Origin: a virus
Reading direction: 5' to 3' (one strand)
Virus record (IMG/VR): IMGVR_UViG_3300027985_000604
Coordinates: 1-23,055 of that record
DNA: 23,055 nucleotides
Position 1 is the first letter of the stretch; each line of letters opens with the position of its first letter. The translations under genes were made by a program, and so were the position numbers. Shown one piece after another: positions 13,654 to 19,094 of the stretch. The notes under the pieces were generated by a model, which searched no databases, was not told where the DNA came from, and saw only the letters and a list, made by a program, of their open reading frames with translations.

Positions 13654-15822
13654 CTACCGTCTCCGCAGGAAGTTGATGGATTGCGGCAAGGCCGCCGTCT
13701 CCGGGGTGTCGCTGGCACTCTCGGCGTCATTCGTGCGCGCCAGCGCCACCGCATTGGCGTTCGTGAGCCCCGCCACGCACCAGTCGGGCGGCGCCTCCCA
13801 GTTCACTCGGGCAAGGCCCAGATGCTCGGCCAGCGCCAATGCCTGCACCGAATGATCGAGCGTCTCGTTGCGCTGGATTCCGGGCTTCTTCTCCCAGCCC
13901 TTCTCGCCGCGCTGTTCGGCCAGAAGCTCGGCGAGGTGCTCGGTCTCCATCCAGGCCGCGACATGCTGCGCGTTGATCCGGGTGTCGTCGCGCTCGAGTG
14001 CGGCAAGAACCGAATCCTTGAGCCGGTCCACCGCCATGTTCAGCAACTTGATGCCGCGCGCCTTGCGCCCGCCCGAGGCCCGCTCGGGCGCCTCGTGCCA
14101 GACCCGGTCGGACTGCCGGAAGCCGCCGCGCCCGATCGACAGATAGAAACGCCCGCCCTGCCCGGCCCGCGCGCGTTTGCGCCAGAACTTCTCGGCATTG
14201 TCCGACCACCCCGCCGGGCCGTTGAAGTCAATCACGACGCCCACCGGCCTCAGCCCCCAGCCCTGCCCCTCGACCGGATAGACCCGGTCCTGCAGCTCGG
14301 CCAGCACTTCGGCATCCTCGGCATAGCGCCCCGGATCGACCGCGCGATACTTGCCGTCATCGCCCTTCGCCCGCGGCGCCGCGTCCGGCGGCTGATGGAT
14401 CGCGAAGCGGTCGATGATGATCCGCTCGCCATCCTCGCCGAAGGCCACCACTGAAACCTCGAAGCGGTTACCCTGCACGTCGACACAGGTCACGACGAAC
14501 CGCGCCCATCCCGGCGCAATCCCCTTGTCGAGCGGCCGTGCCCGGGCGCGCAGTGCATCCACCGTCAGCGCGTCTTCCTCCTCGGTCTTCGGTCGCCGGT
14601 AAGGCAGCCCGAGGTCGGTATAGAACACCCCCGCCAGGTCGATGTCGTCGCCCGAGATCGCGAAGGCGCGCCGGGCGCTCTCATAGCGTTGCACAAGCTC
14701 AGCCCAGTTCACGAAGGCCGCCGCGACCCCGTTGAGCGCATAGCTCGCATAGGCCGTGTGGCGCAGATCCGGGTCGTCGATGCGCACGAGGCGACGGCGC
14801 CCCGCGTCATCGAAGCTCCGGGCCTCGTGCAGCCAGCCGCCCCGCCCCTGCATCGCCCGGCGGTTCAACTCCACCTTCTGGCGGTGGCTGATCATGCAGC
14901 CGCAGTGCTGGCAGACCATCTGCGCCCGCACCCCCGCCTCACCGGGGTCGAGTTCCTCGGGATAGTCGAGCCGCTCGAAGGTCGGCTCGAAGAGCTCCGC
15001 GCAATCCGGGCATTCCCAATACCAGCGCCCGCGCGTGCCCTCGTTGTAGAGCTTCACGATCCCGCCCGTCACCTCCGGCATCCTGTGCGGCTCGAGCGCC
15101 ACGACTGGCAGCGGCTTGGTGTCATCGACCGGGAAGGCCGGGGTGCTTTCGGCCACGACGCAGCCGCGGCTCATGAAGGTGCGAATGCGCATCATTGCCA
15201 TGCCGAAGGGCGTGTTCTCGGGCGCGTCCTTCGGCCCGAGGCGCTGCGGCATGTGGTCGTAATCGGTCAGCAGCACCATGCGCTGCGAGCGCGAGGACAG
15301 CTGGTTCGCGACCGGATAGCCGATCCCCAGACGCACGCCGCGGAACCGCTTGCGGCTGAAGGTGCTGTCGTCGCGCGCCCGGCCGAGCCGCTCGAGGAGA
15401 AGCGGGCTGTTCTCGATTGCCGGATCGAGCTTCTCCTCCACCCAGGCGTTGGCATCGGTCTGGGTCATGTGGATCAGCTGCACCGGGCCCGGCGCGCAGG
15501 TCACCGCATGGGAAGCCACCGACAGCAGCATCTGGCTCTTGCCGCTCTGCGCGGGCCCGGTGAAGATCACCGCCTTGAACCGGCGCGACTGCGTCATGTC
15601 CTGCGGCTCGACCATATAGGGCGTGACCGCGCGGCTGTAATCCTCCCAGCGGCCCGCGACCGGAACCCGCAGCGCCCGTTCGGCCGCCTCGGTCACGCTG
15701 ATCCGACTCGGCGGATCGAGCAGCGGCAGCGCGTCGGCGATCATCTCCTCGGGCGTCACGAATGGCGGCAAAGGCGGAATCCGCGACAGCGCACCGATGC
15801 CGCGATCGACCATCTCCACCAT
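13654..15822 (-). CDS. Terminase large subunit (GpA-type)
   Basis: The 722-aa product is the packaging ATPase and nuclease. Walker A is FTGPAQSGKS (residues 87-96, Lys95), preceded by the family's EPQDMTQSRRFKAVIFTGP block. The Walker B-like strand is VLLTDYDH (183-190), where the usual DE pair reads DYD. A zinc-ribbon-like set CPDC ... CQHC lies at 270-273 and 303-306. The nuclease domain shows VTCVDVQGNRFEV (Asp448) and VVIDFNGPAG (Asp532). The length fits the GpA family, which in lambda cuts cos sites, so cos packaging is likely. The ATG at 15822 overlaps the small subunit's stop by one base (TGATG); a second ATG at 15813 is also possible. Confidence 0.95.
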   Translation of the reverse strand: MVEMVDRGIGALSRIPPLPPFVTPEEMIADALPLLDPPSRISVTEAAERALRVPVAGRWEDYSRAVTPYMVEPQDMTQSRRFKAVIFTGPAQSGKSQMLLSVASHAVTCAPGPVQLIHMTQTDANAWVEEKLDPAIENSPLLLERLGRARDDSTFSRKRFRGVRLGIGYPVANQLSSRSQRMVLLTDYDHMPQRLGPKDAPENTPFGMAMMRIRTFMSRGCVVAESTPAFPVDDTKPLPVVALEPHRMPEVTGGIVKLYNEGTRGRWYWECPDCAELFEPTFERLDYPEELDPGEAGVRAQMVCQHCGCMISHRQKVELNRRAMQGRGGWLHEARSFDDAGRRRLVRIDDPDLRHTAYASYALNGVAAAFVNWAELVQRYESARRAFAISGDDIDLAGVFYTDLGLPYRRPKTEEEDALTVDALRARARPLDKGIAPGWARFVVTCVDVQGNRFEVSVVAFGEDGERIIIDRFAIHQPPDAAPRAKGDDGKYRAVDPGRYAEDAEVLAELQDRVYPVEGQGWGLRPVGVVIDFNGPAGWSDNAEKFWRKRARAGQGGRFYLSIGRGGFRQSDRVWHEAPERASGGRKARGIKLLNMAVDRLKDSVLAALERDDTRINAQHVAAWMETEHLAELLAEQRGEKGWEKKPGIQRNETLDHSVQALALAEHLGLARVNWEAPPDWCVAGLTNANAVALARTNDAESASDTPETAALPQSINFLRRR

Positions 15823-16484
15823 CAGACCGACAGCTCCCCTTGCCGCGTCCCGAGCGCGATCACCGCGCCCGGCCGCGAGAACAGCGCCTCGATCTTCTGG
15901 CGCACCTCGTCGCGGGTCTGGTCACAGCGCATCTTCAGCTTCTCGACCTGGTCGGGCGAGATCGAGAACTCCATCTCGGCGAAGTCCGGAAGCGTCTCCA
16001 TTGCCGAGCCGAAGGTGATGAGGATGTCGTCGAGCGCCGCGCGCATCCGGTCGGCCCGCACCAGATCGCCGCGCTGTTCGGCCACGCGGTTGCGGTGATA
16101 CTCCGCCTCGGACCACTTGCGCAGTTCGTCGGCGGTCAGCGCGGCCTCTTCCTCCGCCTGGTCGTCGTCGAGGTTGCGGAAGGCAAGCGCCGCCTGTGCC
16201 GCCAGATGGTCGCCCCGCGCCTTCGTCGCCTGCAGCCGCTCCTCACGGTTCTGCCGCCAAGCATAGCACTGGCGCAGCGAGAACTCGTAAGAGACTCCGT
16301 TCTGCCCGCCCGACAGGACCGGCATGCCAAGGCTCACCCACTTGGTGATCGTGTTCTCGGACACGCTGAAAGCGCGCGCGAGCTGCACCCGGTTGAGCGG
16401 CGTGCCGTCATCATCCACCCCATCCGGCAACGGATAGCGCGCAAGATCGAGCACGCTCCCGTCGTCGAGCGTGATGGTGTTCAT
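15822..16484 (-). CDS. Terminase small subunit (Nu1-like)
   Basis: The 220-aa product has a winged helix-turn-helix near residues 31-55 (NRVQLARAFSVSENTITKWV, then SLGMPVL), with a following hydrophobic-basic segment CYAWRQ that resembles the Nu1/MerR-like DNA-recognition domain. The middle is a charged helical coil (about 80-140, rich in Glu, Arg and Ala) likely to mediate oligomer assembly. The C-terminus probably contacts the large subunit. It overlaps the large subunit gene by one base. In lambda the homologue binds cosB, which lies upstream of its own gene; the 150-bp gap upstream here is the natural place to look for cos. Confidence 0.88.
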   Translation of the reverse strand: MNTITLDDGSVLDLARYPLPDGVDDDGTPLNRVQLARAFSVSENTITKWVSLGMPVLSGGQNGVSYEFSLRQCYAWRQNREERLQATKARGDHLAAQAALAFRNLDDDQAEEEAALTADELRKWSEAEYHRNRVAEQRGDLVRADRMRAALDDILITFGSAMETLPDFAEMEFSISPDQVEKLKMRCDQTRDEVRQKIEALFSRPGAVIALGTRQGELSV

Positions 16485-16634: not shown

Positions 16635-17351
16635 CTAGCCGAGCCGCTTGTAGAACATCTTGCTCAGCGCCCGGGACAGATGCCCCTGCAGCCGCGCCTC
16701 GAAGATCGCCATAGCTTCCTCGTGGAAGCCAAGCCGTGGCGCATAGCTCGGCACATTCGCCGTGATGATCGCGACGATGCCAATATTGCCCGAGGCGTCC
16801 TTGCGGTAGATCCCCGGATAGAGACCCGATTGCGGCACGAAATAAGTCGCGCGTTTGCGCTTGCGCCCGCGCAGGGTCGAGCGCGCCGTGGCGTTCGCGG
16901 CATAGTCGCGCTGGATCTTCAGTGCCGACATCACCTGATTACGCTCGCCCGTCGACCAGTTGCCATGGGCATCGAGCCGCGCCTCGTCTGCCGGGATCAC
17001 TGCCGCGATCACGCCCTCATAGGCCAGCGCCCGCTGCATCTGTTGTTCGAACCCGGTCTGCCGCCGCGCGCCGCCCTCTTCTTCGACCTTCAGATAGTCC
17101 CGCGCCGCCCGCGTCGGGCGTTCCATCACCGTGGCCGTCAGATCGTCGGCACGCGCCTTCTGCACATAGAAGGCGTTCTCAGTGAACTTCGTGGGCCGGT
17201 CGAACACGACCGTCATCCGGTCCCGGATGTGATCGTTCGCCTCTTGCGCCGTGTCGTTGAGCGCCCAGGCCGCCGCGATGCGAAGATCGCGATCCGCCAT
17301 CACCTTGATCGCAGAAACGAAGCCCGAGACGTCCAGAGCACTGTCGGCCAT
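16635..17351 (-). CDS. Putative minor tail protein Z-like, first gene of the late operon
   Basis: The 238-aa product contains RIAAAWALNDTAQEANDHIR (about residues 28-47) followed by a FTENAFYVQKA segment, similar in pattern to lambda gpZ-type tail completion proteins with their ALN.TA helix. A basic RGRKRKRATYFVP stretch and a SYAPRLGFHEEAMAIFEARL C-terminus follow. The match is by eye and moderate. In lambda, Z lies after the head genes, so its place before terminase is unusual. The ATG at 17351 is preceded by GAGG five bases upstream; an in-frame GTG at 17357 would add two residues. It is the first gene after the candidate late promoter and terminator. Confidence 0.5.
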   Translation of the reverse strand: MADSALDVSGFVSAIKVMADRDLRIAAAWALNDTAQEANDHIRDRMTVVFDRPTKFTENAFYVQKARADDLTATVMERPTRAARDYLKVEEEGGARRQTGFEQQMQRALAYEGVIAAVIPADEARLDAHGNWSTGERNQVMSALKIQRDYAANATARSTLRGRKRKRATYFVPQSGLYPGIYRKDASGNIGIVAIITANVPSYAPRLGFHEEAMAIFEARLQGHLSRALSKMFYKRLG

Positions 17352-17363
17352 CTCCACCTCGCA

Positions 17364-17401
17364 GAAATAGAAACGCCCGGTCGGGTAGTTCCCGCCGGGC
17401 G
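17364..17401 (-). terminator. Intrinsic terminator at the head of the late operon (tR'-like)
   Basis: The arms CGCCCGGTCGGG and CCCGCCGGGCG form an 11-bp stem with one bulged T and loop TAGTT; on the minus strand it is followed by TTTCTATTTC. It stands between the Q-position gene and the first late gene and about 15 bases downstream of a predicted start of transcription, as in lambda tR'. Confidence 0.65.
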
Positions 17402-17422
17402 CTCGTGTAGATCATGGCAAAA

Positions 17423-17451
17423 GATATGGCGCCGCGTGGTCTAAGCGTCAA
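17423..17451 (-). promoter_or_regulatory. Candidate late promoter (pR'-like)
   Basis: On the minus strand TTGACG (17451-17446) is followed after 17 bases by CATATC (17428-17423). The -35 hexamer is almost consensus, the -10 is weak. A transcript starting near 17416 would meet the terminator after about 40-50 bases. The strong -35 in a gap just before the late genes supports a real promoter. Confidence 0.55.
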
Positions 17452-17466
17452 TCCCCTTTTTGCAGA

Positions 17467-18312
17467 TCAGCCACCATAGCCCTGCATCCGGTCGAGCGAC
17501 GCCCCGAGAGCATCGCGCAACATGTCCAGGCGACAGCCTTGCTTCGACCAGCCGTGCGCCGTCAGCACAGCCCCAAGATCCATGTCTTCCAGGCAAACCG
17601 CATCCACCAGCCGCCGGTCGAGGATGACCGAAGCCCCTGCCCCGCGCGCACTCGGGCGTACCCGGCGCACCACCATCGCCGCCCCGTCGCCAATCCGCCG
17701 CCGCAAGACCGCGATCTTGCGAGCCTCATCGAGCCGAAGATCCGTCACATCGACGCCACGGCCAGAACCGCCCGTCCGTCCCTCGAGGCTAGACAGCTTG
17801 ATCGCCCCCGCCTCGTGCCGCTCGACCAGCGTCCGGTAAAACCGCGCGACAGCGATCTGACCGGGCGTGAAGGGCGCGGGCTTCTTCGCAGCGCCCGCCC
17901 GCGCTTCCATCCTGTCGAACACATCCGCCGCGCACACCGCCTTGCGCGGTTGCACCTCGCCCGGGCCCTGATATCCCGTATCCTCGATCGTGTTGCGCGT
18001 ACCGGGCCGGACCTGCCGCATCGTGAACACCCGACACGCACCGCGCGCCGGCGCCGCCGGGATCTCGGGGCCGCAGGCCTCGGGGGGCGCGGCGCGGGAC
18101 AGGATATAGGCCTGCGACAGCGCCTGCATCTCGCCCAAGGTGTGCGGGCGCACGGCCCCGTCCCGCTCGGCCCAGACCAGCACCCGGCCCCAGGCGCGGC
18201 CCAGTTCCAGATCGAGCGGATGGAAGCCCGCAAGATCCGCCCCGCCCAGCACCGCCGCCAGAACCTCGACCGCCGGGCGGCGGCGGGCGTGAACAGCTGC
18301 CAGCCCCATCAT
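17467..18312 (-). CDS. Unknown protein in the lambda Q position (possible late regulator)
   Basis: The 281-aa product begins MMGLAAVHARRRPAVEVLAA. It has a Pro/Ala-rich middle, a FTPGQIAVARFYRTLVERHE helix (about 150-170) and a basic C-terminal part with ARKIAVLRRRIGDG, then RRLVDAVCLEDMDL and an ending of LDRMQGYGG. I recognise no named family. It is the last gene of the early operon and is followed directly by a candidate promoter and terminator and then the late genes, the place where lambdoid phages encode the Q antiterminator. A role in switching on the late operon is therefore a reasonable hypothesis. The ATG at 18312 overlaps the upstream stop by four bases (ATGA). Confidence 0.6.
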   Translation of the reverse strand: MMGLAAVHARRRPAVEVLAAVLGGADLAGFHPLDLELGRAWGRVLVWAERDGAVRPHTLGEMQALSQAYILSRAAPPEACGPEIPAAPARGACRVFTMRQVRPGTRNTIEDTGYQGPGEVQPRKAVCAADVFDRMEARAGAAKKPAPFTPGQIAVARFYRTLVERHEAGAIKLSSLEGRTGGSGRGVDVTDLRLDEARKIAVLRRRIGDGAAMVVRRVRPSARGAGASVILDRRLVDAVCLEDMDLGAVLTAHGWSKQGCRLDMLRDALGASLDRMQGYGG

Positions 18313-18887
18313 GCCACCTCGCCCGCAAGCGCTGCGATCTCGTGGCATTTGGCCAGCGCGGCCTGCCGCCGGGCGTGCCAGGCGCGGTCATCGGCGTGCA
18401 GCTCCTGCCCCGCCGCCAGCCGTTCTTCGAGCACGATCATCCGCCGCCGCGCCTCATCCGCCGCAGCCCGGATCTGCGAGGCGGCGAAACCGCCCGGGAA
18501 CTGCCGCACCCGGCGCAGGTTGCCCAGGAGTTCCGGCGCCCAGCCCTCGGCCAGCGCCTCGCGCCCGATCCGGCTGGCAAACACCGCCCGCATCAGCGGC
18601 GAGACGCTTTCCTCGGGCGGCTGGATCATCGCGGCCCAATCGAGGATCTTGTTGCCGATCGGCAGCCGGTCGCGGTCCTTGCCCGCCGGGTTGGCCGCCA
18701 CCTGTTCTTCGAGCGCCGCCAGATTGGCCGGGCTCATATAGGCCAGCCGGGCGCACAGATCCGCCACCATCGCCTCGAACTGCGCCCGCGTCAGGCTCGC
18801 AGGCCGCGCCAGCCCCCGCCGTTCCAGCGGTTCGATCAGGATCTCGCGCACCCGTTTCTCGGCCATCTTCTGCTCTGTGCTGTCCAT
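18309..18887 (-). CDS. Unknown early protein downstream of the putative origin
   Basis: The 192-aa product begins MDSTEQKMAEKRVREILIEP and is mostly helical and charged, with a LTRAQFEAMVADLCARLAYM segment (about 32-51) and a C-terminal coiled region (about 140-185, rich in Ala, Arg and Glu). No family is recognised and no catalytic motif is visible. It follows the origin-like gap and precedes the Q-position gene. By position it could be the partner of the DUF1376-like protein in replication, comparable to lambda P after O, but nothing in the sequence proves that. The start is well supported: AAGGAG lies nine bases before the ATG at 18887. Confidence 0.65.
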   Translation of the reverse strand: MDSTEQKMAEKRVREILIEPLERRGLARPASLTRAQFEAMVADLCARLAYMSPANLAALEEQVAANPAGKDRDRLPIGNKILDWAAMIQPPEESVSPLMRAVFASRIGREALAEGWAPELLGNLRRVRQFPGGFAASQIRAAADEARRRMIVLEERLAAGQELHADDRAWHARRQAALAKCHEIAALAGEVA

Positions 18888-18956: not shown

Positions 18957-19087
18957 GCGTCTGTCTGTTCTTGTCTTTTCTTGTCTCTTCTTCTCTACGC
19001 AGAACTGTCACACGACAGACGTGACTGTCCGCGGACTGTCCGTGACAGTCACAAACCGTCACGCGTGACACTCGCGGGACAGTCACG
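18957..19087. repeat. Pyrimidine tract plus GACTGTC/GACAGTC repeat cluster (origin candidate)
   Basis: From about 18957 to 18997 the plus strand is almost all T and C, with TTCTTGTC occurring twice and a near copy after it. From 19005 to 19087 the 7-mer GACTGTC occurs at 19023 and 19034 and its complement GACAGTC at 19044 and 19078, with near copies at 19004 and 19014. GTGACTGTC (19021-19029) and GACAGTCAC (19044-19052) form a 9-bp inverted repeat; GTCACGCGTGAC (19058-19069) is a perfect palindrome. This is iteron-like binding-site architecture. Together with the DnaA box it makes this gap the likely origin. An operator array for a phage regulator is the main alternative. Confidence 0.6.
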
Positions 19088-19094
19088 CCCCCGC

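Follow-up and report, generated by a model that had tools for sequence, protein, structure and literature searches.

A Q-position phage protein of no known family, linked to a conserved late promoter and leader hairpin, as a candidate for a new class of late antiterminator

What switches on the late genes of a phage when the gene at the Q position encodes a protein of no recognised family? The question is raised by the window, by which we mean the whole stretch of 23,055 nucleotides analysed here (positions 1 to 23,055 of IMG/VR record IMGVR_UViG_3300027985_000604), which comes from a phage whose hosts are of the Rhodobacter type. On its minus strand, a CII-like regulator (phrog_101) and the early genes are followed by a 192-aa gene (18309–18887), one of the genes with which the early operon ends, and by the 281-aa gene (17467–18312, an open reading frame with its ATG start at 18312), the two overlapping at ATGA. 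The late genes come next on the same strand: a minor tail protein as the first of them (16635–17357; phrog_1924, E 4.9e-48), the terminase small subunit (15822–16484; phrog_141, E 2.6e-23), the terminase large subunit (13654–15822; phrog_15, E 9.7e-148), portal, protease/capsid and tail genes. The 281-aa gene was originally predicted to close the early operon, and it does lie there, directly 5' of the late genes, as is expected of a Q system, with the minor tail and terminase genes 3' of it. Further upstream, the 192-aa protein carries the motif KDRDRxPIxNxIL, and the gap upstream of its gene (19000–19090) contains, as judged by eye, several GTGACTGTC-like repeats together with inverted repeats, perhaps origin iterons or an operator.

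Inspection of the minus strand 3' of the 281-aa stop codon reveals TTGACG, 17 bp, CATATC, 6 bp, CATGATC, 5 bp and a hairpin. The −35 hexamer TTGACG (17446–17451), whose first five bases are nearly invariant in relatives, is adjoined by CTTA (17442–17445), which keeps a fixed register and forms the core of a proposed protein-binding element, binding being inferred. The −10 hexamer CATATC (17423–17428) is weak. CATGATC (17410–17416), an instance of the −10-like sequence YATNATC, occupies the predicted positions +1 to +7 and is proposed as a sigma-dependent pause site; it is present in the elements found and is the strongest single feature of the region, overlooked in the original prediction. The hairpin (17371–17404), recognised by folding energy and covariation, has its 5' arm from about +13, starts 19 nt and ends 52 nt beyond the −10 hexamer, and is followed by the T-rich tail TTTCTATTTC (17363–17372). 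Its folding energy is −26.6 kcal/mol (z −5.34), a value equalled by 0 of 200 shuffles. Both the TTGACG-17-CATATC promoter proposed just past the gene, confirmed at 17451–17423, and the hairpin with U-rich tract proposed some 15–50 bases farther on were thus recovered. The full element occurs once in the window against 0 expected in shuffles. A generic consensus scan of the window returned 0 promoters and 0 terminators, and missed the site because CATATC shares no more than 3 of its 6 bases with TATAAT and an internal bulge interrupts the hairpin. Taken from the window alone, the evidence for the element would therefore be weak, and its support is comparative.

The protein itself gave no match at E ≤ 1 in Pfam, PHROG or NCBIfam and none in PDB sequence searches, and 99 relatives compared with Pfam and PHROGs produced isolated chance matches only, with no antitermination family among them. 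The claim that it belongs to no recognised family holds to this extent, qualified by the remote link to DUF6456 described below. An AlphaFold2 model built from a 97-row alignment (mean pLDDT 85.7, pTM 0.75) contains beta structure in its central part, and the best PDB match of its C-terminal part is sigma region 4 (8x6g_H, Z 5.3, 75 residues, 3.4 Å), with 3vfz_A at Z 4.2; these Z values are modest. Foldseek of the model against the PDB found nothing at E ≤ 0.001, and among viral models it retrieved an RcRhea protein (E 1.8e-3, prob 1.0). The structural comparison with Q and other antiterminators suggested along with the original prediction thus yielded a confident fold with a sigma-region-4-like C-terminus, while no Q or AlpA structure figures among the structural matches listed, an absence that is not an exclusion. 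Homologs occupy the same position in other phages: the slot is kept in Psul1, Pthi1, RcapNL, Mae-JY02 and Pan4, where the neighbours differ and late genes always follow directly, and TerL lies downstream on the same strand in 74 of the 79 loci with enough sequence. In RcapNL, a prophage carried by R. capsulatus SB1003, the family member is gp01.

When relatives were gathered by the protein alone (87 non-redundant loci), the element was present in 85. It adjoins the gene in its strict form at 66 loci, was matched by eye next to the gene at L077, L080 and L081, and lies intact 0.5–3 kb farther downstream, behind inserted sequence, at 16; no element was found within the 4 kb examined at L045 and L059. 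Since the element remains intact downstream of the inserted sequence, its role is tied to the late genes, not to the 3' end of the 281-aa gene. The loci whose Q-position gene is set 0.5–3 kb apart from the late promoter by extra sequence (L022, L024, L026–L028, L036, L037, L040, L048, L051, L052, L056, L060–L062 and L069) may mark a hotspot for cargo in these prophages. Within the strict set of adjacent elements (42 clusters), the distance from TTGAC to CGCCC is 50 or 51 nt, the extra base sitting between TTGAC and CTTA, so that CTTA stays in register with the −10 and the hairpin. The element profile derives in part from filtered matches, in which TTG, A+2, A+5, T+6, C+7 and GCC were fixed by the search. 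Columns not so fixed are nevertheless conserved over the 83 clusters: C−22 in 72, C−18 in 65, A−11 in 66, T−4 in 72, A+11 in 74 and G+15 in 71. YATNATC was also recovered when the search was anchored on TTGAC and CGCCC alone. The −10 region of the same 83 clusters has no conserved T at −7. Between −35 and −10, CTTA and the C bases at −22 and −18 keep a fixed register, relaxed in one subgroup and without binding data; as CTTA is lost in some subgroups, the exact binding site remains unsure.

The converse search used a pattern of 17 fixed bases holding no protein information. Run on 2.9 million viral contigs (IMG/VR), it matched at least 119 stretches. Among the matches listed, 112 are preceded by a family gene at a distance of no more than 1.5 kb; in nearly all of these the gene runs up to the element, and in five it stops 0.2–0.6 kb short of it. 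A further one (L199, on the same contig as L024) has its family gene about 1.5 kb upstream, just beyond that distance; four (L219, L220, L221 and L225) lie on contigs that end less than 180 nt upstream of the element, too short to tell, and two (L120 and L151) match the pattern without the hairpin motif. A family gene is thus found upstream of 113 of the 117 hairpin-bearing matches listed, the contigs of the other four breaking off too early. Among 293 Rhodobacterales genomes, 20 contained the pattern, with 24 matches in all, and the reversed control matched none. Profile search of these genomes, with coordinates compared by hand, placed a family gene just upstream of 23 of the 24 elements, and a degenerate remnant of one lies 1.3 kb upstream of the last. 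The pR'-Q-tR'-like order proposed from the window is therefore kept in dozens of diverged phages, one-to-one with the protein family.

The hairpin was analysed over 56 diverse sequences. Its covariation score of 0.297 compares with 0.139 ± 0.011 in shuffles, 0 of 500 reaching it, and falls to 0.114 or less once the strands are slid; 87.4% of cells are paired, and 10 of 13 pairs have changed on both sides. The hairpin is conserved as a structure and not as a motif. At L081 the entire stem is replaced (GCGCTCAAC/GTTGAGCGC). The 5' arm begins at +14/+15 in nearly all relatives, the 3' end is variable and the loop is not conserved. The U-tract is moderate (4–6 T of 9 in most relatives). Folding energy and covariation together qualify the hairpin as a promoter-proximal intrinsic terminator, termination itself being inferred.

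It has been established that Q proteins depend on two DNA features, a Q-binding element placed between −35 and −10 and a −10-like sequence at the very start of the transcribed region, and that 21Q carries a sigma-region-4-like helix-turn-helix (PMC6606751). The present system resembles lambda Q and 21Q in that the gene ends the early operon, the late promoter follows at once, a terminator precedes the late genes, a −10-like sequence lies in the initial transcribed bases and bases between −35 and −10 are conserved; the C-terminus of the 281-aa model, moreover, resembles sigma region 4, as has been described for 21Q. On the other hand, the 281-aa family has no detectable sequence relation to lambdoid Q, and differs from it in its length of 281 aa with a beta-containing central part and in a hairpin starting from about +13. 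Its late genes begin with tail/HNH and terminase genes whereas those of lambda begin with lysis genes. The architecture is consequently not "exactly" that of lambda, as had been claimed. The same cis plan is found for AlpA of Pseudomonas aeruginosa, where PalpB has an element between −35 and −10, CACGAT at −1 to +5 and a downstream intrinsic terminator, tB (PMC9371919); AlpA, however, shows no sequence relation that we could find, and it regulates host lysis genes instead of the late genes of a phage. YATNATC at +1 to +7 corresponds to the sequence hallmark of loading of the Q and AlpA type.

A third comparison concerns gene transfer agents (GTAs). GafZ of the Caulobacter GTA has been shown to antiterminate; its site lies between −35 and −10, and a sigma-like helix-turn-helix is predicted for it (PMC11150451). 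GafA of Rhodobacter matches DUF6456 proteins and has been reported to exert its effect via the omega subunit of RNA polymerase (PMC9638019). What is proposed here for the 281-aa protein has a parallel in GafZ, which antiterminates a phage-like structural operon in Alphaproteobacteria from a promoter-embedded site, but GafZ works together with GafY and IHF, and its terminators are situated after the first gene. Alignment of hand-cut domains by hhalign with DUF6456 (PF20057; Alphaproteobacteria set) gave P 1.4e-6 to 1.8e-6 (probability 90) and a score of 45.8, column shuffles reaching at most 25.7, whereas full untrimmed alignments gave only P 6.5e-4 (probability 28). Foldseek relates a phage DUF6456 protein to the 281-aa model at E 0.021 (prob 0.99). 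PF20057 was above cut-off in none of five phage records, and at E ≤ 0.1 in none of 99 members. These comparisons suggest a distant relation of the family to DUF6456 (the C-terminal half of GafA, and GafZ via published homology), not membership. Whether the 281-aa family is the viral branch of DUF6456/GafA-GafZ, with a phage late antiterminator reading a site embedded in the promoter as the ancestor of the GTA master regulators, and with a third Q-type loading design beside lambda Q and 21Q/AlpA, is a proposal for which we see even chances.

Starting from what was observed, namely the gene and its element, their linkage and fixed spacing, the covariation of the hairpin, the position before the late genes and the predicted fold, we consider it highly probable that the 281-aa protein is the phage's late antiterminator, acting by Q-like read-through of the hairpin. 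As the protein and a unit of late promoter, pause-like sequence and terminator hairpin are co-inherited, a late-gene switch by hairpin read-through is the protein's most likely role, and the best reading would be that of a new protein class in a Q-like job, with the cis plan of Q and a protein of no Q family. Promoter activity, pausing, termination, the binding site and antitermination are all inferred in the absence of transcript, binding or read-through data. In the proposed sequence of events, the protein would be produced from the end of the early operon. RNA polymerase carrying the housekeeping sigma factor would initiate just 3' of the 281-aa gene, at the late promoter, the sequence of which is conserved. 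Polymerase would stall within the first 20 bases, where sigma region 2 rebinds YATNATC at +1 to +7, a step inferred from the invariance of YATNATC and from the published lambdoid Q and AlpA mechanisms. Without the protein, transcription would stop some 50 nt downstream of the start, at the hairpin. The protein would bind the conserved CTTA and the C bases that follow between −35 and −10, probably through the sigma-region-4-like helix-turn-helix, and load on the paused polymerase, which, so modified, would pass the hairpin and transcribe the tail, terminase and head genes. In the open-access literature, to which our search was limited, we found neither the element nor the late control of these phages described.

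The weak −10 hexamer and the absence of a conserved T at −7 would also fit a protein-dependent promoter. Together with the sigma-region-4-like C-terminus and the distant relation to GafA, for which an action via omega has been reported (PMC9638019), they speak for a protein that activates initiation at a weak late promoter in a GafA-like or sigma-like manner, the hairpin being a by-product or merely blocking leak-through from the early operon. This explanation, the best placed of the alternatives, we regard as improbable: it accounts neither for a covarying hairpin with a fixed start at +14/+15 nor for a −10-like sequence kept invariant within transcribed DNA, and the half of GafA homologous to the 281-aa protein is the counterpart of GafZ, for which antitermination has been shown (PMC11150451).

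Paracoccus phage Pben1 shares the tail-terminase module and has a gene similar to the one before the Q slot (p33, which by eye resembles the 192-aa protein in the same place); the Q slot itself holds an unrelated 213-aa protein of unknown function (p34, phrog_9306; L263:2643–3284). Downstream of p34 stand a different promoter and leader (TTGACTTTCCCCTGGCTTCCTTGACATTGTGCCGTTACCACACG), followed by a hairpin of the same kind (GTGCGCCCGGAGGAGAAATCCTCGCGGGCGC), an arrangement with which 8 of 9 related viral contigs agree. Between the 281-aa family and the Pben1 group, the upstream sequence, including the −35/−10 interval, thus changes with the protein while the hairpin is unchanged, which looks like the pattern expected of interchangeable Q alleles. 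This second Q-position family, which has a conserved late promoter and leader of its own, occurs in Pben1 and L266–L273 and also in two cyanophage records, and is likely another new antiterminator. In Pseudomonas phage vB_Pae_U8, a related minor tail and terminase module has an annotated Q-like antitermination protein upstream (L265:1–122). The Pben1 swap bears on the idea that the element works as RNA, be it a self-acting put-like RNA, a nut-like protein-bound site or a small regulatory RNA some 50 nt long. Conservation of a transcribed leader and hairpin is compatible with such roles, which we hold to be very improbable, given that the loop is not conserved and that the Pben1 group pairs the same kind of hairpin with an unrelated protein, the sequences upstream changing along with it.

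That the hairpin is merely the terminator of the early operon, its promoter likeness arising by chance, could draw on the failure of a simple scanner to place any promoter above threshold; the 50/51-nt geometry fixed in 42 clusters, the 24/24 linkage in genomes against a control of zero and the persistence of the element with the late genes even kilobases from the 281-aa gene make this hardly tenable. A packaging or replication site, suggested only by proximity to the terminase genes, can practically be dismissed, as it needs neither promoter spacing nor covariation and as the annotated cohesive end of RcapNL (1–26) lies upstream of the homologous gene, away from the element at about 915–1000.

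Late antitermination by the 281-aa protein, if borne out, would identify a late switch, both protein and site, for many temperate phages of Rhodobacter, Paracoccus and roseobacters. The 17-base signature would mark the start of late operons in unannotated prophages, and the natural protein-site pairs could be used for studying how unrelated proteins load on paused polymerase. Finally, a testable origin is offered for the regulators of gene transfer agents.
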